Part shown: piece by piece, positions 16,289 to 60,884 of the stretch
Numbering within the stretch: position 1 is the stretch's first letter
How the letters are laid out: each line of letters opens with the position of its first letter
DNA from: Mediterraneibacter glycyrrhizinilyticus
Lineage (GTDB): Bacteria > Bacillota > Clostridia > Lachnospirales > Lachnospiraceae
DNA: 64,000 bases
NCBI RefSeq assembly: GCF_015560805.1
Contig: NZ_JADMSO010000005.1
Location: 1 to 64,000 of the forward strand
Direction of reading: 5' to 3'
Made by a program: the position numbers and the translations under genes
Notes under the pieces: generated by a model
Database searches by the model: none
What the model was told of the DNA's origin: nothing
What the model saw: the letters and a program-made list of their open reading frames with translations, nothing else

Positions 16289-16516
16289 TTAGATTTTCGG
16301 ATCGTCTAATAATTGGCTGAGTATTTGTAACGGAATGGTTTTGGCGGCGGCTTTATTCTCTTCAGCGGCTTCCACAAGCTCAGACCGGAGAATGAGGACG
16401 TCCTTTGGGGCGTTGATCGCAAGTTTTACGGAGTCGGAACTGATTTCGGAGATCGTAATCGTCACTTCATTACCGATAGTCAATGATTGCCCTTTTTTAC
16501 GTTGTAATATAAGCAT
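16289..16516 (-). CDS. csrA: Carbon storage regulator CsrA, translational repressor of flagellin
   Basis: This is a 75-residue RNA-binding dimer. MLILQRKKGQSLTIGNEVTI matches the CsrA N-terminus (RKKG-S-IG), and APKDVLILRSEL holds the conserved RNA-contacting arginine. It binds GGA motifs in hairpin loops and near ribosome binding sites. The gene follows fliW with a 5-base gap at the end of the flgM-to-csrA unit, the same fliW-csrA pairing known from Bacillus, where CsrA represses hag translation. The three flagellin leaders in this window each contain a hairpin with an AGGA loop, a likely target. Confidence 0.95.
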   Translation of the reverse strand: MLILQRKKGQSLTIGNEVTITISEISSDSVKLAINAPKDVLILRSELVEAAEENKAAAKTIPLQILSQLLDDPKI

Positions 16517-16521
16517 AGTAT

Positions 16522-16959
16522 TTACTCCCTCCCGTTTGCAGGTATTGCGTGTTTAAAGCTGTAAGCAGGTTCGTCCAGAATAATCTGTTTTCCGGTTCGG
16601 TTCCGGACGTTTACCGCCAAAGGAGCTTTCAGATTAACCGTAGAGTCAGTTAAAGATTCATTCAGCACACAGATCACATAGTAAGAAATATCGTCCTCAC
16701 ATGTAAGATTCAAGTCTTTTTTGTCCTTTTCGGATAACACCGGGGAATAGTCGGGGAAAAAGCGAAAAGGATTCATCAAAATGAAAGAAAGCGTCTCATC
16801 ATCTGTGCTCTGGAAAGAAAGAAGAGAATCGGTTGTCTCGTGGAAAGGGAGCGGAAGAAAATTCTTATAGGATTCAAATCCAAACAATCCATCCGGTAAG
16901 TAGATAAGATCTTCTGGATCATAAGACAGCGAACCGAAATATTTTGCATTTATTTTCAT
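16522..16959 (-). CDS. fliW: Flagellar assembly factor FliW
   Basis: The 145-residue protein starts MKINAKYFGSLSYDPEDLIYLPDGLFGFE. The LPDGLFGFE motif and the later LNLTCEDDISYYVICVLN and NLKAPLAVNVRNR segments are typical of FliW. FliW binds both flagellin and CsrA, so that accumulating flagellin frees CsrA to block flagellin translation. Length and C-terminal acid-rich end fit the family. It sits between the DUF6470 gene and csrA. With multiple flagellins encoded here, FliW would be a common sensor for whichever is being made, which is an inference. Confidence 0.95.
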   Translation of the reverse strand: MKINAKYFGSLSYDPEDLIYLPDGLFGFESYKNFLPLPFHETTDSLLSFQSTDDETLSFILMNPFRFFPDYSPVLSEKDKKDLNLTCEDDISYYVICVLNESLTDSTVNLKAPLAVNVRNRTGKQIILDEPAYSFKHAIPANGRE

Positions 16960-28382: not shown

Positions 28383-28414
28383 ATAAGTGCCTCCTGAAAC
28401 TATGATATAAGCAT

Positions 28415-28443
28415 ATTATATCGAATATAAAAATAACGGTCAA
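28415..28443 (-). promoter_or_regulatory. Sigma-A promoter of the PilZ gene
   Basis: TTGACC (28443-28438), a 17-base spacer and a perfect TATAAT (28420-28415) on the minus strand, about 35 bases before the ATG. Confidence 0.75.
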
Positions 28444-28515
28444 CAGCTTTCGTATTATCTATATGAGAGGGATGAACGGTTTATGACAAAACATGGGGGA
28501 AATATCTGGAAAAGG

Positions 28516-28549
28516 AAAAAGACTTCCGGGGAATCCCCGAAAGTCTTTT
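28516..28549 (-). terminator. Terminator of flagellin 1
   Basis: AAGACTTTCGGGG pairs with CCCCGGAAGTCTT and is followed by TTTTT on the minus strand. Flagellin 2 and 3 have related hairpins in the same place. Confidence 0.85.
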
Positions 28550-28569
28550 GATAAAATAGGGTGTGTATA

Positions 28570-30051
28570 TTACTGTAATAACTGAAGAACTCCCTGCGGA
28601 AGCTGGTTTGCCTGTGCAAGCATAGCCTGAGAAGACTGAACAAGGATGTTGTTCTTCGTATAAGCCATCATCTCATTTGCCATGTCTACGTCACGGATCC
28701 GGCTTTCAGCAGCGGTCATGTTCTCAGCTGTTACACTCAGGTTGTTGATCGTGTGCTCCAGACGGTTCTGGATCGCACCCAGATCACCACGTGTAGAAGA
28801 TACAGAGTTGATCGCAGATTTGATCTTGTCAACCGCCGCTTTTGCTCCTGCCTGTGTGCTGATGTCAATATCAGCAATTCCGAGTGCATCTGCGTGCATA
28901 TCTCCAACAGCAACCGTCATCTGATTGAAGTCTGCGGAGGTATCTCCGATCTGAAGGGTCAGTCCGGCACCGTTCTTGGTTGCCGAGAAAACAATATCCT
29001 TATTGTTTTTCTCAAATTCGGCTTTGATTCCTGTGCCTTCTAACGCTTTATTTAAGTTAGCCAATGTTGCGTTGTTATCAACGCCGACAACAATAGCCGT
29101 TGCTCCTTTTGTAGTCGGATCGGTATTGGTATCTTTTACAAATTCATAGGTCTTTCCATTTAAAGTGATGGTGTCACCAGCTTGAATAGTTGTACCTGCA
29201 TTTTCTGTCTGAACTTTTGCGTTTTCACCATCCGTACGACCACCTTCATCAACGTTGCTATTTCCAGCAGTTGTCTTTACATCTGTAATAGATGCACCGT
29301 CTTTACCTGTTACCTTGGATGTAAATACAACTTTATCGCTGTCTAGCTTTATATCAAATACAGAGGATAATTCTGAATTTTTAGAAACGGCAGCAAAAAT
29401 ATTTTTGGCAACATCTTCTTTGGAAGTGGTAGCATTTGTATATTTAACTTCAACAGAATGAGATTTGCCATCCGCATCTTTATATTCGATAGTTAATGTT
29501 TGTTCATTTGTATCCGCACCTTGTCCAGTAGCACTAATTTCAGAAGTTGCACCAGTTGCTGCAATTTCTTTTACCGTAGTATTAGCACCGCCAAGTTTAC
29601 CTGCTGCTAAATCCAATTTTGTTGTTGACAAAGAACCATCCAGCAGGTTAATTCCGTTGAAGTTCGTGGAATCTGCGATACGGTTGATCTCAGATTTCAG
29701 AGACGCGATCTCTTTCTGCAGGTTTGCACGGTCAACCGGGTTATCGTATGTTCCGTTGGCGGACTGGTCAGCAAGTTCTACCATACGATTTAACATAGAA
29801 TGAACCTCTGTCAAAGCACCCTCTGCTGTCTGTACGAGAGACACACCGTCCTGTGCGTTCTTCTGTGCTGTATTCAGACCGGTGATCTGTGCACGCATCT
29901 TCTCGGAAATAGCAAGTCCCGCTGCGTCATCACCGGCACGGTTGATTCTGTAACCGGAAGACAGTTTCTCTAAGTTTTTGGAAACAGCACTGTTGTTTCC
30001 GGTTAAGTTTCTGTAAGAGTTTAAAGCTGCAATATTGTGTTGAATTCTCAT
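28570..30051 (-). CDS. Flagellin 1 (predicted to be the expressed flagellin in this orientation)
   Basis: The 493-residue filament subunit starts MRIQHNIAALNSYRNL and ends ANQLPQGVLQLLQ. The D0/D1 helices (about 1-160 and 400-493) are nearly identical to those of flagellins 2 and 3, including SSGYRINRAGDDAAGLAISE and the C-terminal NNLSVTAENMTAAESRIRD. The middle (about 165-400) diverges. A sigma-28 promoter at 30212-30238 and a leader of about 150 bases precede it. A 26-bp recombination site and a CsrA-type hairpin lie in the leader. The gene points away from the recombinase and mirrors flagellin 2. Confidence 0.97.
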   Translation of the reverse strand: MRIQHNIAALNSYRNLTGNNSAVSKNLEKLSSGYRINRAGDDAAGLAISEKMRAQITGLNTAQKNAQDGVSLVQTAEGALTEVHSMLNRMVELADQSANGTYDNPVDRANLQKEIASLKSEINRIADSTNFNGINLLDGSLSTTKLDLAAGKLGGANTTVKEIAATGATSEISATGQGADTNEQTLTIEYKDADGKSHSVEVKYTNATTSKEDVAKNIFAAVSKNSELSSVFDIKLDSDKVVFTSKVTGKDGASITDVKTTAGNSNVDEGGRTDGENAKVQTENAGTTIQAGDTITLNGKTYEFVKDTNTDPTTKGATAIVVGVDNNATLANLNKALEGTGIKAEFEKNNKDIVFSATKNGAGLTLQIGDTSADFNQMTVAVGDMHADALGIADIDISTQAGAKAAVDKIKSAINSVSSTRGDLGAIQNRLEHTINNLSVTAENMTAAESRIRDVDMANEMMAYTKNNILVQSSQAMLAQANQLPQGVLQLLQ

Positions 30052-30083
30052 TGTAAAATTCCTCCTTGAATTGAAAGTGTTGT

Positions 30084-30100
30084 CGGAAATCCTTTTCCGG
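30084..30100 (-). promoter_or_regulatory. CsrA-type hairpin in the flagellin 1 leader
   Basis: On the minus strand CGGAAA and TTTCCG flank an AGGA loop, followed about 15 bases later by the CAAGGAGG ribosome binding site. A GGA in the loop plus a second in the ribosome binding site is the arrangement CsrA uses on Bacillus hag mRNA. Confidence 0.55.
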
Positions 30101-30160
30101 CTTTGCTACTGTCAGTGATTGTTATAAAGTAAAGAGGAATACTCCAGACTGCCGGCAAGT

Positions 30161-30186
30161 GTCTTGATAAGTACACCTTTTTGGAC
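30161..30186 (-). repeat. Recombination site A (inverted), 12-2-12 layout with GT core
   Basis: On the minus strand: half-site GTCCAAAAAGGT, core GT (30174-30173), half-site ACTTATCAAGAC. The halves are imperfect inverted repeats (consensus GTCYNNAWARGY). Site B carries the identical inner half and core in the opposite orientation. Similarity continues outward through 30145 (GCCGGCAGTCTG). The geometry matches sites of Hin-type serine invertases. Confidence 0.7.
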
Positions 30187-30211
30187 TTCATAAAATCACT
30201 GTACACCTATA

Positions 30212-30238
30212 TTATCGTTAGGTAGATCAAAAACTTAA
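30212..30238 (-). promoter_or_regulatory. Sigma-28 promoter inside the invertible segment, facing flagellin 1
   Basis: TTAAGTTT (30238-30231), exactly 11 bases, AACGATAA (30219-30212). This matches TAAAGTTT-N11-GCCGATAA at 7/8 and 6/8 positions with correct spacing. It sits between the recombinase stop codon and site A. Comparable elements are absent at the site B end and before flagellin 3. Confidence 0.7.
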
Positions 30239-30267
30239 GTATATTTTTTAAGATTTATTTTTTTCTT

Positions 30268-30894
30268 TTAAAAGTTATGTATTTTGATACTTTGTTGTTT
30301 TTCATATTCTGAAATTTTTGTGTAGAGCGTACTTCTGCCTATATTACAAATCTCTGCAAATTCATGGATCGTTAGCTGCTTTTTTCGCCAACGCTGATAG
30401 AGTTCCGGGAAATTCTGCGGGAGTGCGCTTCGTGGTTTTCCAAATCTTACTCCGCGCATTTTTGCGGCGGCAATTCCTTCTGCCTGTCGCTGACGGATTG
30501 TTTCCCGCTCGTTTTGTGCTACAAAAGAAAGCAATTGTAATACGAGATCACTGATAAATGTACCTAATAAGTCCCTTGTTTTACTGGTATCTAAGAGGGG
30601 CATATCCTGGATCACAATATCCGCACCTTTTACTTTTGTGATGATCCTCCATTGTTCCATGATCTCTTCATAGTTTCGGCCAAGTCGGTCAATACTTTTC
30701 GTAACAATGATATCTCCGGATTTCAGTTTTTTTAACATGGACTTATATGCCGGACGATCAAAATTCTTTCCGCTTTGCCTGTCAATATAAATATGTTTTT
30801 CTGATATACCCGCATTTTTTAGAGCAATCAACTGTCGTTCGATATTCTGATCTTTTGATGAAACGCGGACATATCCATACGTAATGTTTTCCAT
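30268..30894 (-). CDS. Hin/Gin-type serine recombinase, predicted flagellin DNA invertase
   Basis: The 208-residue protein starts MENITYGYVRVSSKDQN. The nucleophile Ser12 lies in VRVSSKDQ, as in Hin's IRVSTNDQ. IVTKSIDRLGRN (about 60-72) holds the active-site arginines. A long E-helix (NERETIRQRQAEGIAAAKMRG) leads to a C-terminal helix-turn-helix (LTIHEFAEICNIGRSTLYTKI). The size is that of an invertase/resolvase, not a large serine integrase. It is enclosed by inverted sites A and B and lies between outward-facing flagellin genes, exactly where an invertase would act. Its ribosome binding site is AAGGGAG. A resolvase remnant of a transposon is the alternative, but no transposase is near. Confidence 0.92.
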   Translation of the reverse strand: MENITYGYVRVSSKDQNIERQLIALKNAGISEKHIYIDRQSGKNFDRPAYKSMLKKLKSGDIIVTKSIDRLGRNYEEIMEQWRIITKVKGADIVIQDMPLLDTSKTRDLLGTFISDLVLQLLSFVAQNERETIRQRQAEGIAAAKMRGVRFGKPRSALPQNFPELYQRWRKKQLTIHEFAEICNIGRSTLYTKISEYEKQQSIKIHNF

Positions 30895-30954
30895 ATCATT
30901 TCTCCCTTGAGTGTTCTTAAGTGTTTGCAGATGATTCTCTGCACCTTTTTAAAT

Positions 30955-30980
30955 GTCCAAAAAGGTGTGCCTAATCAGAC
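30955..30980 (+). repeat. Recombination site B, 12-2-12 layout with GT core
   Basis: Half-site GTCCAAAAAGGT, core GT (30967-30968), half-site GCCTAATCAGAC. The first 14 bases equal those of site A in inverted orientation. The outer half is partly diverged. The element GCCGGCAGTCTG follows at 30985-30996, as at the other two sites. Confidence 0.7.
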
Positions 30981-31040
30981 AAGTGCCGGCAGTCTGTGTT
31001 TCACTTTTTACTATATAAAACTCACTGGAACAAACAATTA

Positions 31041-31058
31041 CCGGAAAAGGATTTCCGG
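31041..31058 (+). promoter_or_regulatory. CsrA-type hairpin in the flagellin 2 leader
   Basis: CCGGAAA and TTTCCGG form a perfect 7-bp stem with an AGGA loop, about 15 bases before the CAAGGAGGA ribosome binding site. Confidence 0.55.
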
Positions 31059-31089
31059 ATAAGATTTTAATTCAAGGAGGAATTTTACA

Positions 31090-32565
31090 ATGAGAATTCA
31101 GCACAATATCGCAGCATTGAACTCTTACAGAAACTTAACAGGAAACAACAATGCAGTAGCAAAAAATTTAGAGAAATTATCTTCTGGTTACAGAATTAAC
31201 CGTGCCGGAGACGATGCAGCCGGACTTGCAATTTCCGAAAAAATGCGTGCACAGATCACAGGTTTGAACACAGCACAGAAAAACGCACAGGATGGCGTAT
31301 CTCTTGTTCAGACAGCAGAGGGAGCTTTGACAGAAGTTCACTCCATGCTGAACCGTATGGTAGAACTGGCTGACCAGTCTGCGAACGGAACATACGACAA
31401 CCCGGTTGACCGTGCAAATCTGCAGAAAGAAATCGCTTCTCTGAAAGACGAAATCGATCGTATCGCAGATTCCACAAACTTCAACGGAATCAACCTGTTA
31501 GACGGTTCTCTGTCTACAACAAAGTTAGACTTAGCAGCAGGAACACTTGGTGGTCAGGCTACTACTGTAAAAGAAATCCCAGCAACAGGAACAACCTCCG
31601 GAATCGCCGGACATGATAAGGCAGCAATTGGAGAGCATACATTGACTGTTGAATATGCAGACGAAAACGGAACTCTGCATAAAGTAGATGTAAAATACAA
31701 GATCGATACTGCTGATGATAAAGGAAAAGCAATCGACGCAATCTTAAAGGCAGTTTCTCAGAATGATACATTATCTTCTGTATTTAACATCACAAAAGAT
31801 GCCGATAGCGTTAATTTTGAATCCAAAGTTACAGGTTCTAAAGGTGCAAAAGTCGTAAACGTTTCTACTACAGATGCTACATCTAAAATGGATGCAGATA
31901 AAGCTATCGACGGAGAAAATGCAAAAGTTCAGACTCAGGGTGCAGGTGCTAAAATCGCTGAAGGCGATACCATCACTTTAAACGGAAAGACATATGAGTT
32001 TGTAAAAGATGCAAGCACTGAGCCTACTAAAAAGGGCGCAACTGCTGTTGTTGTCGGAGCTGATAACAACGCAACTCTCGGAAACCTGAACAAAGCGTTA
32101 GAAAGCGCTGGAATCAAAGCTGAATATAATACCAACGACATCGTATTCTCTGCAACAAAGAACGGCGCAGGTCTGACACTTCAGATCGGTGATACTTCCG
32201 CAGATTTCAACCAGATGACAGTTTCTGTTGGCGATATGCATACAGCCGCTCTTGGAATTGCTGATATTGACATCAGCACACAGGCTGGAGCGAAAGCAGC
32301 AGTTGACAAGATTAAATCTGCAATCAACTCCGTATCTTCTACCCGTGGTGATCTTGGTGCGATCCAGAACCGTCTGGAGCACACGATCAACAACCTGAGT
32401 GTAACAGCTGAGAACATGACCGCTGCTGAAAGCCGGATCCGTGACGTAGACATGGCAAATGAGATGATGGCTTATACAAAGAACAACATTCTTGTTCAGT
32501 CTTCTCAGGCAATGCTTGCACAGGCAAATCAGCTTCCGCAGGGAGTTCTTCAGTTATTACAGTAA
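31090..32565 (+). CDS. Flagellin 2 (predicted silent in this orientation)
   Basis: The 491-residue flagellin shares almost identical D0/D1 ends with flagellins 1 and 3 and differs in the middle (about 165-395), being closer to flagellin 1. Its leader holds site B, the GCCGGCAGTCTG element and the CsrA-type hairpin. I find no sigma-28 or convincing sigma-A promoter between the recombinase gene and its ATG, so it should depend on inversion to receive the promoter now facing flagellin 1. The reading frame is complete, so silence is regulatory, not decay. Confidence 0.97.
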   Translation: MRIQHNIAALNSYRNLTGNNNAVAKNLEKLSSGYRINRAGDDAAGLAISEKMRAQITGLNTAQKNAQDGVSLVQTAEGALTEVHSMLNRMVELADQSANGTYDNPVDRANLQKEIASLKDEIDRIADSTNFNGINLLDGSLSTTKLDLAAGTLGGQATTVKEIPATGTTSGIAGHDKAAIGEHTLTVEYADENGTLHKVDVKYKIDTADDKGKAIDAILKAVSQNDTLSSVFNITKDADSVNFESKVTGSKGAKVVNVSTTDATSKMDADKAIDGENAKVQTQGAGAKIAEGDTITLNGKTYEFVKDASTEPTKKGATAVVVGADNNATLGNLNKALESAGIKAEYNTNDIVFSATKNGAGLTLQIGDTSADFNQMTVSVGDMHTAALGIADIDISTQAGAKAAVDKIKSAINSVSSTRGDLGAIQNRLEHTINNLSVTAENMTAAESRIRDVDMANEMMAYTKNNILVQSSQAMLAQANQLPQGVLQLLQ

Positions 32566-32590
32566 TACATACACACACCCTATTTTATCA

Positions 32591-32624
32591 AAAAGGCTTC
32601 TGGGGATTTCTCAGAAGTCTTTTT
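32591..32624 (+). terminator. Terminator of flagellin 2
   Basis: AAGGCTTCTG pairs with CAGAAGTCTT and is followed by TTTT. It isolates flagellin 3 from read-through. The rest of the gap up to 32837 contains site C and the flagellin 3 leader, with no other gene seen. Confidence 0.75.
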
Positions 32625-32701
32625 CATGTATTCTTACATTTTTTATCTTATTATATGAAAACTCTTCGCATATACAGGATAGCTGCAATAACTTTCGGAT
32701 T

Positions 32702-32727
32702 CTCTAAATATCTGTACTTATCAAGAC
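32702..32727 (+). repeat. Recombination site C before flagellin 3
   Basis: Half-site CTCTAAATATCT, core GT (32714-32715), half-site ACTTATCAAGAC. The outer half and core are identical to site A; the inner half is diverged but keeps the TC-T--ATA--T pattern. It is direct with site B and inverted with respect to site A. Identity to the flagellin 1 leader continues through about 32757. Confidence 0.55.
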
Positions 32728-32788
32728 ACTTGCCGGCAGTCTGGAGTATTCCTCTTTGATTTTATAACGATCACTGACAGAAGCAAAG

Positions 32789-32806
32789 CCGGAAAAGGAT
32801 TTCCGG
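32789..32806 (+). promoter_or_regulatory. CsrA-type hairpin in the flagellin 3 leader
   Basis: Same CCGGAAA / TTTCCGG stem and AGGA loop as in flagellin 2, again just upstream of CAAGGAGGA. Confidence 0.55.
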
Positions 32807-32837
32807 ATAGAATTTTAATTCAAGGAGGAATTTTACA

Positions 32838-34304
32838 ATGAGAATTCAGCACAATATCGCAGCATTGAACTCTTACAGAAACTTAACAGGAAACAACAAT
32901 GCAGTAGCAAAAAATTTAGAGAAATTATCTTCTGGTTACAGAATCAACCGTGCCGGAGATGACGCCGCAGGACTGGCTATTTCTGAGAAAATGCGTGCAC
33001 AGATCACAGGTCTGAACACAGCACAGAAGAACGCACAGGATGGTGTATCTCTTGTACAGACAGCAGAGGGAGCTTTGACAGAAGTTCACTCCATGCTGAA
33101 CCGTATGGTAGAACTGGCTGACCAGTCCGCCAACGGAACATATGACAACGAAGTTGACCGTGCAAACCTGCAGAAAGAGATCGCTTCCCTGAAAGATGAG
33201 ATCGACCGTATCGCAGATTCTACCAACTTCAACGGAATCAACCTGTTAGACGGTTCTCTGTCTGCTACAAAACTTGACTTAAACAAAGCAAGTACACTTG
33301 GCGGAAATGGAATTACTGTTCAGGAAAATGCGGCAATTGCAGCGACATCAGAATTCACCGTAGGAGTGGGTGCGGATGGTCAAGAACATACACTGACTGT
33401 TGAATATGCAGATGAAAATGGTACATTGCACAGCGTTGATCTTAAATATACATCAGATACTAACGCAGCTACCAGTACGAAAAATATCAAAGATGCAATT
33501 GCAAAATCAGAACTTGCATCCGTTTTCGACGTTACTGAGAGTAATAACAAATTTACACTGACTTCCAAAGTTGCTGGTGAGGGTGGCGCAAAACTGACAG
33601 CAATTAAGACAACGGATCAGACTGGAACTGCTGTAAAAGCCGGAACGGTTACAGAGGGTAAGAATGCAACGGTAACAGCAAAAGGTCAGGGGGCTATTCA
33701 GGATGGCGATAAAATCACTCTGAATGGAAAAACCTATCAGTTCGTAAAAGATGCAGATACAGAAGTAGCAGATGGAGCAACCGCAGTTTTAATTGGTAAA
33801 ACCAGTGATGATACAATGGTGAACTTGAACAAGGCTCTGGAAAGTGCTGGAATTGAAGCTACTCTAGCGACAAATGATATTACATTTGCAGCATTAAACA
33901 ATGGAAAAGGTTTGACACTTCAGATTGGTGATACTTCTGAAGATTTCAACCAGATGACTGTTTCTGTTGGGGATATGCACACCGTAGCGCTTGGCATCGC
34001 TGATATTGACATCAGCACACAGGCAGGAGCGAAAGCAGCAGTTGACAAGATCAAGTCTGCAATCAACTCTGTATCTTCTACTCGTGGTGATCTTGGTGCG
34101 ATCCAGAACCGTCTGGAGCACACGATCAACAACCTGAGTGTAACAGCTGAGAACATGACCGCTGCTGAAAGCCGGATCCGTGACGTAGACATGGCAAATG
34201 AGATGATGGCTTATACAAAGAACAACATTCTTGTTCAGTCTTCTCAGGCAATGCTTGCACAGGCAAATCAGCTTCCGCAGGGAGTTCTTCAGTTATTACA
34301 GTAA
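32838..34304 (+). CDS. Flagellin 3
   Basis: The 488-residue flagellin has the same conserved ends (MRIQHNIAALNSYRNL; ANQLPQGVLQLLQ), but its middle (about 150-375) is the most divergent of the three. Flagellin 3 carries unique stretches such as NKASTLGGNGITVQENAAIA. Its leader is almost a copy of the flagellin 1 leader, including site C and the CsrA-type hairpin. No clear sigma-28 promoter is visible. It may be expressed after inversion between sites A and C, by a weak unrecognised promoter, or serve as a donor for gene conversion. Confidence 0.97.
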   Translation: MRIQHNIAALNSYRNLTGNNNAVAKNLEKLSSGYRINRAGDDAAGLAISEKMRAQITGLNTAQKNAQDGVSLVQTAEGALTEVHSMLNRMVELADQSANGTYDNEVDRANLQKEIASLKDEIDRIADSTNFNGINLLDGSLSATKLDLNKASTLGGNGITVQENAAIAATSEFTVGVGADGQEHTLTVEYADENGTLHSVDLKYTSDTNAATSTKNIKDAIAKSELASVFDVTESNNKFTLTSKVAGEGGAKLTAIKTTDQTGTAVKAGTVTEGKNATVTAKGQGAIQDGDKITLNGKTYQFVKDADTEVADGATAVLIGKTSDDTMVNLNKALESAGIEATLATNDITFAALNNGKGLTLQIGDTSEDFNQMTVSVGDMHTVALGIADIDISTQAGAKAAVDKIKSAINSVSSTRGDLGAIQNRLEHTINNLSVTAENMTAAESRIRDVDMANEMMAYTKNNILVQSSQAMLAQANQLPQGVLQLLQ

Positions 34305-34328
34305 TACATACACACACCCTATTTTATC

Positions 34329-34366
34329 AAAAAGGCTTTCGGGGATTTCCCGGAAGTCTTTTTTTC
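34329..34366 (+). terminator. Terminator of flagellin 3
   Basis: AAGGCTTTCGGGG pairs with CCCGGAAGTCTT and is followed by TTTTTTT. Confidence 0.85.
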
Positions 34367-34427
34367 AATTTTTATAAAAGAGTTGACACGAAGAAAACAC
34401 TGTCCGAAAGGGTGATTCTTTTTACAG

Positions 34428-34470
34428 GTGGAAAGTGGAACGGAGTTCCGTTTTTCCGCTTTTTTTATTT
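34428..34470 (+). terminator. Second terminator hairpin before the GGDEF/EAL gene
   Basis: GTGGAAA pairs with TTTCCGC and GGAAC pairs with GTTCC, then TTTTTTTATTT follows. Together with the first hairpin it insulates the downstream gene. A TTGACA box lies at 34383 without a good -10. Confidence 0.65.
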
Positions 34471-34552
34471 AAAGTTGGGTGGAATCTGGCTGTTGGTTGT
34501 GCTATCATAAATACAATAGTTGAGATTGTGGAAAAGCGGGTGGAGGATACAA

Positions 34553-37500: not shown

Positions 37501-38530
37501 CCTGACCGGATATCATCGTCTTGTCAGTGAGATGGAATTGCTGCAGTTTTCGACGGAATCAAAAGCAGAGGAAAAGAGGGCGCTTCAGGAGAATAAGTGG
37601 AATTTCCGGGAAAAATATATATGGAAAAGTGTATTTTACTATGCAATGCTTTCGGAAACGGTTGCGTTCGCAGAGGTAGAACTGGATAGCGGTGAACTTC
37701 GGACTGCCGGAGGACTGTGGAAGAGCTATATGGGGGAATGCAGGGAGAACAAGGAAAAATTTGCAGCGCTGCTGGAGCGGAAAGCCGAGGAAGAGGTGCA
37801 TCCGGAAGATATGGAAAGCGTCCAGAGATTTGTACAGGAAGAAATGTGTAGTTCCAGACATGCCAATGGAATTTTGACGAAAAAGTTGTGTTTCCGCAGA
37901 TGTGCGGACGATGCGTATCAATGGATGAAACTGACGATGCATATTTTCCGCGAACGATATACGGACCGGGTATATGCGCTGTTGTATCTGAAAAATATCG
38001 ATTCGGAGAAAAGAAAAGAGCTGGTGCTTCAGAAAGCGGCAAATCTGGATCCGTTGACAGGGGTTTATAACCGAGTTACATTTGAAAGAGAAGTAGAACG
38101 GTATATACTTCGGGATAATACGGTGGACGGAGGAGCGCTTGTGATTTTGGATCTGGATGACTTTAAGGGGATCAATGACCGCTATGGACATGCAAAAGGA
38201 GACGAGGCGTTAAAAACGTTGACCGGAGTTTTGAAAATGACATTCCGTCACGGAGATCTGATCGGACGGCTTGGCGGGGACGAATTTCTTGTGTTCATCA
38301 AAAATGTAGAGGTGCGTGAAATACTCAACCGCAGGATGAACGAGTTATTTGCCGTGATCCACAGTGCGTCGGAGATTCCGCTTCGGTGTAGCGTGGGGAT
38401 TACATTTGTCTCTAAAAGCAGATTTTCTTATGAAAGGAGTCTGGAGGAAGCCGATCAGGCTTTATATGAAAGTAAAAGATTGGGAAAAGACCGGTATTGT
38501 TATTATCGGGACATTAAGAAAGGAGAATGA
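34553..38530 (+). CDS. Large PAS-GGDEF(degenerate)-EAL-PAS-GAF-PAS-GGDEF c-di-GMP signalling protein
   Basis: This is a 1325-residue cytoplasmic protein with no membrane segment. In order: a PAS domain (about 15-125); a GGDEF fold with VDGDRYAI where GGDEF should be, probably inactive; and an EAL domain with EALLRY, LEVTES, IDDFGTGYSSLGYL, VKIDRCFV, CEGVETEEEL and QGYLFSKP, so phosphodiesterase residues are kept. A PAS-like region with two CxxC-type pairs (DPCESCKN) and a GAF domain with ADRSYIFERA follow. Then come further sensory sequence and a C-terminal GGDEF with GRLGGDEF and the inhibitory RHGD site. It may both make and break c-di-GMP. The ATG at 34553 follows TGGAGGATAC. It overlaps the receiver gene by 4 bases. 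Confidence 0.9.
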   Translation: MKREERNEMIDHRGNEIEQCLKTIEFLSESTEDYLFLWDFQTGNLHFSNPVYEKYNLPKREEYVYQIQDLERCVYARDVAAVKKMLRQAERGDIVSCNIECRLLNNHGEKVWISCRGKSRCSDTGKPELMLGRISDSVMSRKVDTLTGLLNMTCLFDDLEKELQSEKKGFLMLLGIDDFKNINIKRGRGYGNYILKIVTEIMEEVVDLSLSIYRVDGDRYAINMEGRTKGMVQTTYLLIQEKVLPYCTMSAGVVPYGEEIIDGSGVLYQYAENALDRAKKRGKNNLVFFSADDYEKNLNRIDLQEELRESVRNGFSGFHLCYQLQVSGTDYHVRGAEALLRYESPSRGRISPEEFIPLLEQTELIDPVGDWVLATALHQCKCWRKWVPDFHISVNISYIQLRNEMITQKVLDALKKAELSGESLTLEVTESMQLQEYQYFNQIFYSWRRCGIQIAIDDFGTGYSSLGYLKSMEINEVKIDRCFVSRLQHSVYNCRLISNMIELSHSEQLRVCCEGVETEEELAVLRTLHPDLLQGYLFSKPYEAETFARYYIRGDSEEHSQWEAYRKRLYQLSGGEKTQEMPERACEQGNIIEEMDEIVFVCDQDSYELYYMNTAGQLLTGVHDYKGRKCYKVFQGRNDPCESCKNHKLNAERFLVWEKENTFLNRHFLLKDKLIPWNGKMAHMEIAIDVTEKEHVSKSIQEKLDFEQNIVECTRMLVEEPDTELAIRKVLRSIGAFYQADRSYIFERAAPGDFWINTHEWCEKGVTSQQDELQNVPGSTIQRWVEAFQKGESVVIRNLEHIKKSALEEWEILHTQGIRRLVVAPIRKAQRVIGFLGVDNPKRHHGDAAQLHTMSCFLTERLHDTAAGKLVPEIACEEVLGTTNLGLWKIILNRKNRTAKMYGDRTMKRIMGVNEEQIPEEMYQYWNSRIGEQYRSYVAKSVERIVTSGGPAQLEYTWVHPELGECVVQCLGVRMGEIGDKVCLTGYHRLVSEMELLQFSTESKAEEKRALQENKWNFREKYIWKSVFYYAMLSETVAFAEVELDSGELRTAGGLWKSYMGECRENKEKFAALLERKAEEEVHPEDMESVQRFVQEEMCSSRHANGILTKKLCFRRCADDAYQWMKLTMHIFRERYTDRVYALLYLKNIDSEKRKELVLQKAANLDPLTGVYNRVTFEREVERYILRDNTVDGGALVILDLDDFKGINDRYGHAKGDEALKTLTGVLKMTFRHGDLIGRLGGDEFLVFIKNVEVREILNRRMNELFAVIHSASEIPLRCSVGITFVSKSRFSYERSLEEADQALYESKRLGKDRYCYYRDIKKGE

Positions 38531-60074: not shown

Positions 60075-60884
60075 ATGAGTATACAGGAAGATTATACAGA
60101 AAAGTCGAATGAAGAACTTTTGCAGATGTATGGCTCTACCCATAGTCTGGAGATCAAACAGGAACTGGTGATGCGTTATCTCTATGTTGTAAAGAGTATT
60201 GCGCTGCAGATGCGCGATGTATATATCAGCTTTTCGCAGATGGAAGATATTGTCAACGAGGGCGTGCTTGTGATCATGAATGCGATCGAGAAGTTTGACG
60301 CAAAAAAACAGGTGAAATTCGAGACCTATATTTCCAAAAGGATCAAAGGCATGATCATCGATCTCGCGAGAAAACAAGACTGGGTCCCGAGGAGCGTAAG
60401 AAAAAGCGCAAGAGATATTGAAGATGCGGTTACCACATTATATAATAAAAACGGAACAGATCCGTCGCCGGAAGAGGTAGCGAAATATCTTGGGATCACG
60501 ATGGAGAAGTATCAGGAGATCTTAAGGAAAGCGACGTTGTTCCATGTACTTTCTCTGGATATGGTGCTGGCAGAGGCGCAGGAGAACAGTACGCATGTAC
60601 AGCTTCCGACCAGCGGGGAAGAAAAGCAGCCGGAATCCTGCCTGCTCAGGCAGGAGCTGACCGATGTGTTGGCGGAGGGGATCAGAACATTGAGGGAAAA
60701 AGAGCAGCTGGTCATTTCGCTTTATTATGTAGAGGAATTGAACATGAGGCAGATCGCGCAAGTGTTGGAGATCAGCGAGCCCCGTGTGTCTCAGATCCAT
60801 AGCAGCGGTATTAAAAAATTAAAAAAATATATGCAGAAATTTAATCAGGAAGGGGAAAAGAAGCATGTTTCAAGGATATTATAA
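60075..60884 (+). CDS. fliA: RNA polymerase sigma-28 factor (FliA/SigD)
   Basis: The 269-residue sigma-70-family factor has region 2 with QMEDIVNEGVLVIMNAIEKFD and FETYISKRIKGMIIDLARKQDWVPRSVR (the QDWVPRSVR motif is typical of flagellar sigma). Region 3 follows, and region 4 has MRQIAQVLEISEPRVSQIHSSGIKKLKK. It transcribes late genes such as flagellin and the che genes and is held by FlgM (20792). It overlaps the next gene by 20 bases. Confidence 0.95.
   Translation: MSIQEDYTEKSNEELLQMYGSTHSLEIKQELVMRYLYVVKSIALQMRDVYISFSQMEDIVNEGVLVIMNAIEKFDAKKQVKFETYISKRIKGMIIDLARKQDWVPRSVRKSARDIEDAVTTLYNKNGTDPSPEEVAKYLGITMEKYQEILRKATLFHVLSLDMVLAEAQENSTHVQLPTSGEEKQPESCLLRQELTDVLAEGIRTLREKEQLVISLYYVEELNMRQIAQVLEISEPRVSQIHSSGIKKLKKYMQKFNQEGEKKHVSRIL

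Follow-up and report, generated by a model that had tools for sequence, protein, structure and literature searches.

In the Hin system of Salmonella, the recombinase gene lies inside the invertible segment and the recombination sites are 26 bp long. At the sap locus of Campylobacter fetus a single promoter can be inverted among several gene homologues that lack promoters of their own, and this inversion is RecA-dependent and takes place between gene homologies. Xer1 of Mycoplasma agalactiae is a tyrosine recombinase. As summarized in the source consulted for Salmonella, the segment between hixL and hixR flips and thereby turns the flagellin promoter, with fliC being controlled via the FljA repressor (PMC9368917). 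In M. agalactiae a unique promoter is described as being moved by inversion among the vpma surface-protein genes, with Xer1 as the recombinase, and the same summary mentions SLP variation in C. fetus (PMC5634654). DNA inversion is also described as controlling flagella in a clostridium, Clostridioides difficile, where it takes place upstream of the flgB operon and is carried out by RecV (PMC7446863).

Here we analyze a flagellin locus within a 64-kb window, meaning the whole stretch of DNA under study, which probably comes from a member of Lachnospiraceae or a neighboring family. By analogy, the locus appears to work in the manner of the Hin flagellin switch and of antigen loci with a single promoter, Vpma being one example. 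We consider it likely that the locus is a flagellin selector in which one promoter is moved by DNA inversion. That it is at least a two-way switch, between flagellins 1 and 2, seems to us very likely, and the promoter-moving selector is probably three-way.

Flagellin 1 (493 aa; 28570-30051, minus strand) lies downstream of the promoter in the sequenced orientation. No promoter was seen for flagellin 2 (491 aa; 31090-32565, plus strand) or for flagellin 3 (488 aa; 32838-34304, plus strand), the latter having an intact frame. The three proteins are 94-98% identical over their first 150 and last 125 residues and 49-61% identical in between, and with ends alike and middles divergent a choice among them would change the middle domain. 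A terminator-like hairpin follows flagellin 1 (28517-28549, minus strand), flagellin 2 (32590-32624, plus strand, between flagellins 2 and 3) and flagellin 3 (34329-34363, plus strand), and no frame of at least 80 aa in the flagellin's direction was found between any of the three genes and its hairpin. Since each leader has its own ribosome-binding site and each flagellin its own terminator-like hairpin, transcription should be confined to whichever gene the promoter adjoins.

The promoter is a sigma-28-type element, TTAAGTTT-N11-AACGATAA (equal to TTAAG-N16-CGATA), located on the minus strand at 30212-30238, where it points at flagellin 1 and is flanked by the stop codon of the recombinase gene on one side and the inverted repeat on the other; it was assigned by exact match, consensus score and leader comparison. 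The first-pass annotation had placed such an element within the invertible DNA, facing flagellin 1, and the minus strand from 30238 down to 30212 indeed reads TTAAGTTT TTGATCTACCT AACGATAA, exactly as described. A FliA/SigD-type sigma factor is encoded at 60165-60833 on the plus strand (TIGR02479, 223.6 bits against a curated cut-off of 189.6). The element scores 15/15 against its own consensus, a circular figure because the consensus is the element itself, and the next-best place in the window scores 12. Best same-direction scores in the leaders of flagellins 2 and 3 are 9 and 10, whereas the best score in 400 simulated 210-bp leaders averages 9.5 and never exceeds 13, and TTAA(G/C)-N16-CGATA is absent from both flagellin leaders, which bears out the earlier statement that these leaders hold no comparable element.

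Whole-genome motif counts were considered as proof of a promoter or site and dropped, since the promoter motifs and, in the window's own genome, the loose site pattern were no commoner than their controls. TNAAGTTT-N10-12-NNCGATAA has 2 matches in 3.0 Mb versus 2 for its backwards control, TWAAG-N16-CGATA has 13 genome matches versus 11, and the looser site pattern has 2 (sites L and S3, described below) versus 2. Eleven of the 13 TWAAG-N16-CGATA matches are enclosed by open frames of 60 aa or longer and one has neither an enclosing frame nor a frame start within 350 bp; only the promoter at 30212-30238 lies outside frames with a start no more than 350 bp downstream.

It could be argued that flagellins 2 and 3 have promoters of another type of their own, that all three genes are expressed, perhaps by condition, and that the flip does no more than boost one of them. 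The consensus scans covered sigma-70 and sigma-28 types only, which leaves such an arrangement some room, but the sigma-70 scan of 28400-34500 returned 9 promoter-like sites, fewer than the shuffles (mean 12.7), with zero plus-strand promoters in leaders 2 and 3, and these leaders are the same two that lack TTAA(G/C)-N16-CGATA. We regard separate promoters as quite unlikely. With a single mobile promoter, the preferred reading, flagellin 1 should be ON and flagellins 2 and 3 OFF in the sequenced orientation.

A 26-bp dyad centered on GT is found in the flagellin leaders of the window genome (G000) and four relatives, with GTCCAAATAAGT-GT-ACTTTATTGGAC as its most regular form (G007, G008). It is present in 14/14 main flagellin leaders of G000, G003, G005, G007 and G008, and the site table of 16 instances consists of these plus two at G004 contig ends. 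Because sites had to contain TGT and GCCGGCA to be collected, the GT shared across the table is in part a product of the search pattern; this requirement cost none of the main leaders of the five genomes. In the window, site L (GTCCAAAAAGGT GT ACTTATCAAGAC; 30161-30186, minus strand) is accompanied by two sites on the plus strand that are inverted relative to it, R (GTCCAAAAAGGT GT GCCTAATCAGAC; 30955-30980) and S3 (CTCTAAATATCT GT ACTTATCAAGAC; 32702-32727). L and R have identical left arms and differing right arms, with 7/12 arm positions symmetric in each, and S3 has a right half identical to that of L and a diverged left half, its left arm agreeing with L at 7/12 positions by eye. A crossover center of AT (L, S3) or AA (R), which would make L x R unproductive, was also considered and dropped, the dyad of the relatives being centered on GT.

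A matrix built from relatives only (13 sites, 10 of them distinct) puts L (28.2 bits) and R (24.0 bits) first among all places in the window. S3 reaches 14.5 bits, which lies within the one-strand null maxima from 40 simulations (mean 10.8, sd 2.2, highest 16.4) and close to the 13.6 bits of an unrelated place at 37619, so that S3 is not established by the matrix alone. As a candidate site it is supported by its position, by the right half identical to L and by a homology break at the site. The GT center lies 122, 122 and 123 bp from the start codons of flagellins 1, 2 and 3, and leader homology mostly begins at the dyad: downstream of the site the window leaders are identical at 80/97, 90/99 and 80/97 positions in their pairwise comparisons, and upstream they are at approximately the shuffled level. 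The corresponding downstream identities are 99/100 in G005 and 99/99 in G008. This homology break is not universal, because 4 of 15 within-genome leader pairs are also alike upstream of the site (G007 c-b, 49 versus 27 shuffled; G007 b-a, 34 versus 23; G003 C32-C11, 76/76; G004, 78/93). An IMG/VR scan for the right part common to L and S3 gave zero matches.

Inside the L-R segment lies a gene for a serine recombinase, here called rin (208 aa; 30268-30894, minus strand; PF00239, 2.5e-30). Its best PDB match is 2r0q (8.6e-30), an entry named Tn552 DNA-invertase bin3 that we take to be Sin, followed by the gamma-delta and Tn3 resolvases. Matches to 4m6f and 3uj3, both named "DNA-invertase", are 1.2e-17 and 3.8e-17, which leaves rin closer to resolvase-type entries than to those named only DNA-invertase; the NCBIfam Mpi model gives 58 bits against a cut-off of 272. 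A recombinase search of 145 genomes, the window's own included, identified five same-genus genomes (G003, G004, G005, G007, G008) with a recombinase 68-71% identical to rin. A quick tree with 111 rows groups these and the recombinase of G000 in one clade (support 99). The best recombinases of G001, G002, G006 and G009 are more distant (54-57%), and G010 had no match at 1e-40.

The observation that only one recognizable promoter accompanies the three flagellins has its non-circular support in comparison, as a one-promoter pattern recurs in relatives. TTAA(G/C)-N16-CGATA, a pattern that was widened to allow G or C once the leaders of G001, G002 and G009 had been viewed, is found in 7/28 flagellin leaders from 10 genomes. 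It occurs in exactly one examined leader each of G000, G001, G002, G005, G007, G008 and G009, and in no leader seen of G003 (three), G004 (two) or G010 (one). Five of the 33 flagellin matches fall outside this leader count, namely two partial genes in G001 and three relatives of 50-52% identity in G003, G007 and G008. In G005, G007 and G008 the recombinase gene lies among the flagellins, one leader carries TTAAG-N16-CGATA, and the remaining 1, 3 and 1 leaders have the site only. The distance from promoter start to the site's inner TGT is 63-64 bp in these three genomes and 62 bp in the window. All 7 promoterless sites on the promoter's contig (two in G000, one in G005, three in G007 that are not mutually independent, and one in G008) have, in the sequenced state, the opposite orientation to the site next to the promoter; this order fits what inversion would require, and after a flip some of them would be direct.

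The other genomes with sites are more fragmentary. The recombinase gene of G004 neighbors a site located where a contig ends, neither a flagellin nor a site was found on the 4.3-kb recombinase contig of G003, and G010 has one weaker site (16.4 bits). Both G004 sites, L200 (G004:C18:36-55) and L216 (G004:C58:21189-21208), have the appearance of an assembly broken at a repeated or mixed-orientation locus.

These comparisons bear on the idea that the locus is a relic, its leaders being duplicated copies among which inversion has ceased. The right arms of L and R do differ, and with one genome per species only the sequenced orientation has been observed. Against this, rin has an uninterrupted frame, and RVSS, RLGR and ER stretches near its N-terminus, to which we ascribe a catalytic role, align with solved resolvases; moreover, the spacing between promoter and site is kept across species whose recombinases are 68-71% identical to rin. 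In addition, one of the three site-bearing leaders of G003 and both sites of G004 are at contig ends, as mixed or repeated sequence would give. Of the alternatives weighed here we find a relic the least probable. For the active switch that we prefer, we infer from the sequence that inversion occurs, that rin catalyzes it and that GT is the point of exchange.

Recombination between L and R at the GT center would flip a segment of approximately 793 bp containing the promoter and rin, and would bring either flagellin 1 or flagellin 2 under that one promoter with an identical spacing (122 bp between site and start codon). Since L x R only alternates these two genes, it cannot deliver the promoter to flagellin 3, which sits behind the terminator-like hairpin of flagellin 2. 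Flagellin 3 would be reached by an inversion of approximately 2.5 kb between L and S3, which would place the promoter before it with a spacing of 123 bp and turn flagellin 2 over in the process. The first-pass annotation had taken the invertible segment as the switch, which holds for flagellins 1 and 2 and is incomplete in that the third site, before flagellin 3, was missed. Its description of the device as promoter-moving rather than gene-moving similarly suits the small L x R flip and does not suit L x S3, which would take flagellin 2 and the recombinase gene along as well. Because R and S3 have the same orientation, an exchange between these two sites would excise flagellin 2, and this multi-site geometry for a serine recombinase poses the question of how such a deletion is avoided.

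A simpler possibility is a plain two-phase switch, in which flagellins 1 and 2 take turns through L x R, S3 has decayed and flagellin 3 serves as a silent donor for gene conversion. The identical left arms of L and R, the diverged left arm and weak matrix score of S3, and the near identity of the flagellin ends among copies, as conversion would leave, are all in keeping with this. However, S3 retains the GT center, a right arm identical to that of L, a leader identical to that of flagellin 1 at 90/99 positions and the 123-bp spacing, and the frame of flagellin 3 is intact. The sole partner found for the promoter site is 6.5 kb away in G005 and 4.6 kb away in G008, which makes distant partners seem normal in this group, and the partner site of G008 has a diverged left arm just as S3 does. 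We hold the two-phase switch to be a serious but rather unlikely explanation, and for the three-way selector the balance tips slightly toward S3 being used, for flagellin 3.

The leaders contain further elements. GCCGGCA lies just outside the crossover-like site in 14/14 aligned leaders, a count to be read with the fact that the site-finding pattern required it; the window copies are at 30150-30156 (minus strand, flagellin 1), 30985-30991 and 32732-32738, and may represent an accessory binding site or a leader element. Just 5' of the ribosome-binding site is a leader hairpin with a GGA-containing loop (30084-30100, minus strand; others at 31041-31058 and 32789-32806). The window also encodes a FliW-like protein (frame 16522-16959; 3e-32, yet under the model cut-offs) and a frame at 16289-16516 that is presumably CsrA-like. 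CsrA could possibly control whichever flagellin joins the promoter. We treat this as only a lead because leaders 1 and 2 are not unusually stable overall (z of -0.21 and -0.58), with only leader 3 being so (-2.43). An Rfam scan of the window and of L150, L183, L184 and L186 returned zero RNA families at gathering score.

In the relatives the promoter may select more than a flagellin. Behind each of the five flagellins tested by Pfam (one in G005, two in G007 and both of those in G008), the next frame encodes a family-2 glycosyltransferase that also has TPR-type matches. Such flagellin-then-glycosyltransferase loci include L150 (3881-16844), L149 (1817-12632) and L151 (5606-13007). Co-transcription of the two genes is unsure because T-run hairpins, seen by eye in G008 and G005, lie between them. 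The two flagellin genes of G005 are identical at 812/816 nt (4 differences) and its two glycosyltransferases share 498/671 aligned residues. With near-identical flagellins and differing glycosyltransferases, the G005 switch might change the glycosylation of the filament and not its protein.

In two genomes of the genus, and presumably in a third, a comparable device appears to rely on a tyrosine recombinase. Flagellins of G002 and G009 are approximately 91% identical to the N-terminus of those in the window, and in their leader pairs the -10 part GATAATAGGTACATAAGCG is in both copies and the -35 part in one only, with homology beginning between the two parts. In both genomes a phage-integrase-family (tyrosine) recombinase of 303 aa is encoded within approximately 3 kb of one copy. 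G001 has one promoter-bearing leader of the same type and presumably belongs with them; the loci are L183 (G002:C3:106000-122500), L185 (G009:C11:189000-203000) and L191 (G001:C2:24000-33000). Other flagellins of G001, G002 and G009 share a leader motif like TTTCACCCGGTATCGCGAGCCGGTTGAAAT (leaders L184, L186, L187, L188, L189 and L192), and the two of these leaders that were scanned, L184 and L186, had no Rfam match. We offer, as a tentative proposal with the odds against it, that the device arose twice, with a serine recombinase in G000, G003, G004, G005, G007 and G008 and a tyrosine recombinase in G002, G009 and presumably G001, that the roving sigma-28 promoter reaches at least three gene cassettes, and that a switch of the G005 type changes filament glycosylation.

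Among the main targets of host immunity are the flagellins of gut clostridia. If a shared promoter picks one of several flagellins, filament type in such bacteria would be a heritable coin toss, and any statement on the flagellin displayed by a strain would hinge on whichever orientation the assembly had captured. Among the titles and abstract openings searched, which covered few subscription journals, none described an invertible promoter that selects among flagellins in Lachnospiraceae or related bacteria.

Among the described systems, C. difficile shares flagellar DNA inversion with this locus and differs in that RecV inverts DNA upstream of the flgB operon, with no choice of flagellin. The C. 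fetus sap locus shares an invertible promoter and promoterless homologues, but its products are S-layer proteins and its inversion is RecA-dependent. The resemblance to Hin extends to a serine recombinase gene inside the segment (rin, 30268-30894, between L and R), to inverted 26-bp dyad sites with a 2-bp GT center (L and R, by sequence alone) and to an outward flagellin promoter inside the segment (30212-30238). Unlike Hin, one promoter would here be common to the three flagellins around it, and no FljA-like repressor gene was seen between any flagellin and its hairpin, as judged from the flagellin-adjoining frames. With respect to Vpma, the genes here encode flagellins instead of lipoproteins and the recombinase is of the serine type, tyrosine recombinases having been seen only beside the other device in G002 and G009. 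What the locus appears to share with Vpma is its architecture, a single promoter and several intact homologues without a recognized promoter, each with a site (one promoter, three flagellins and three sites), and loci of the same kind occur in G005, G007 and G008.
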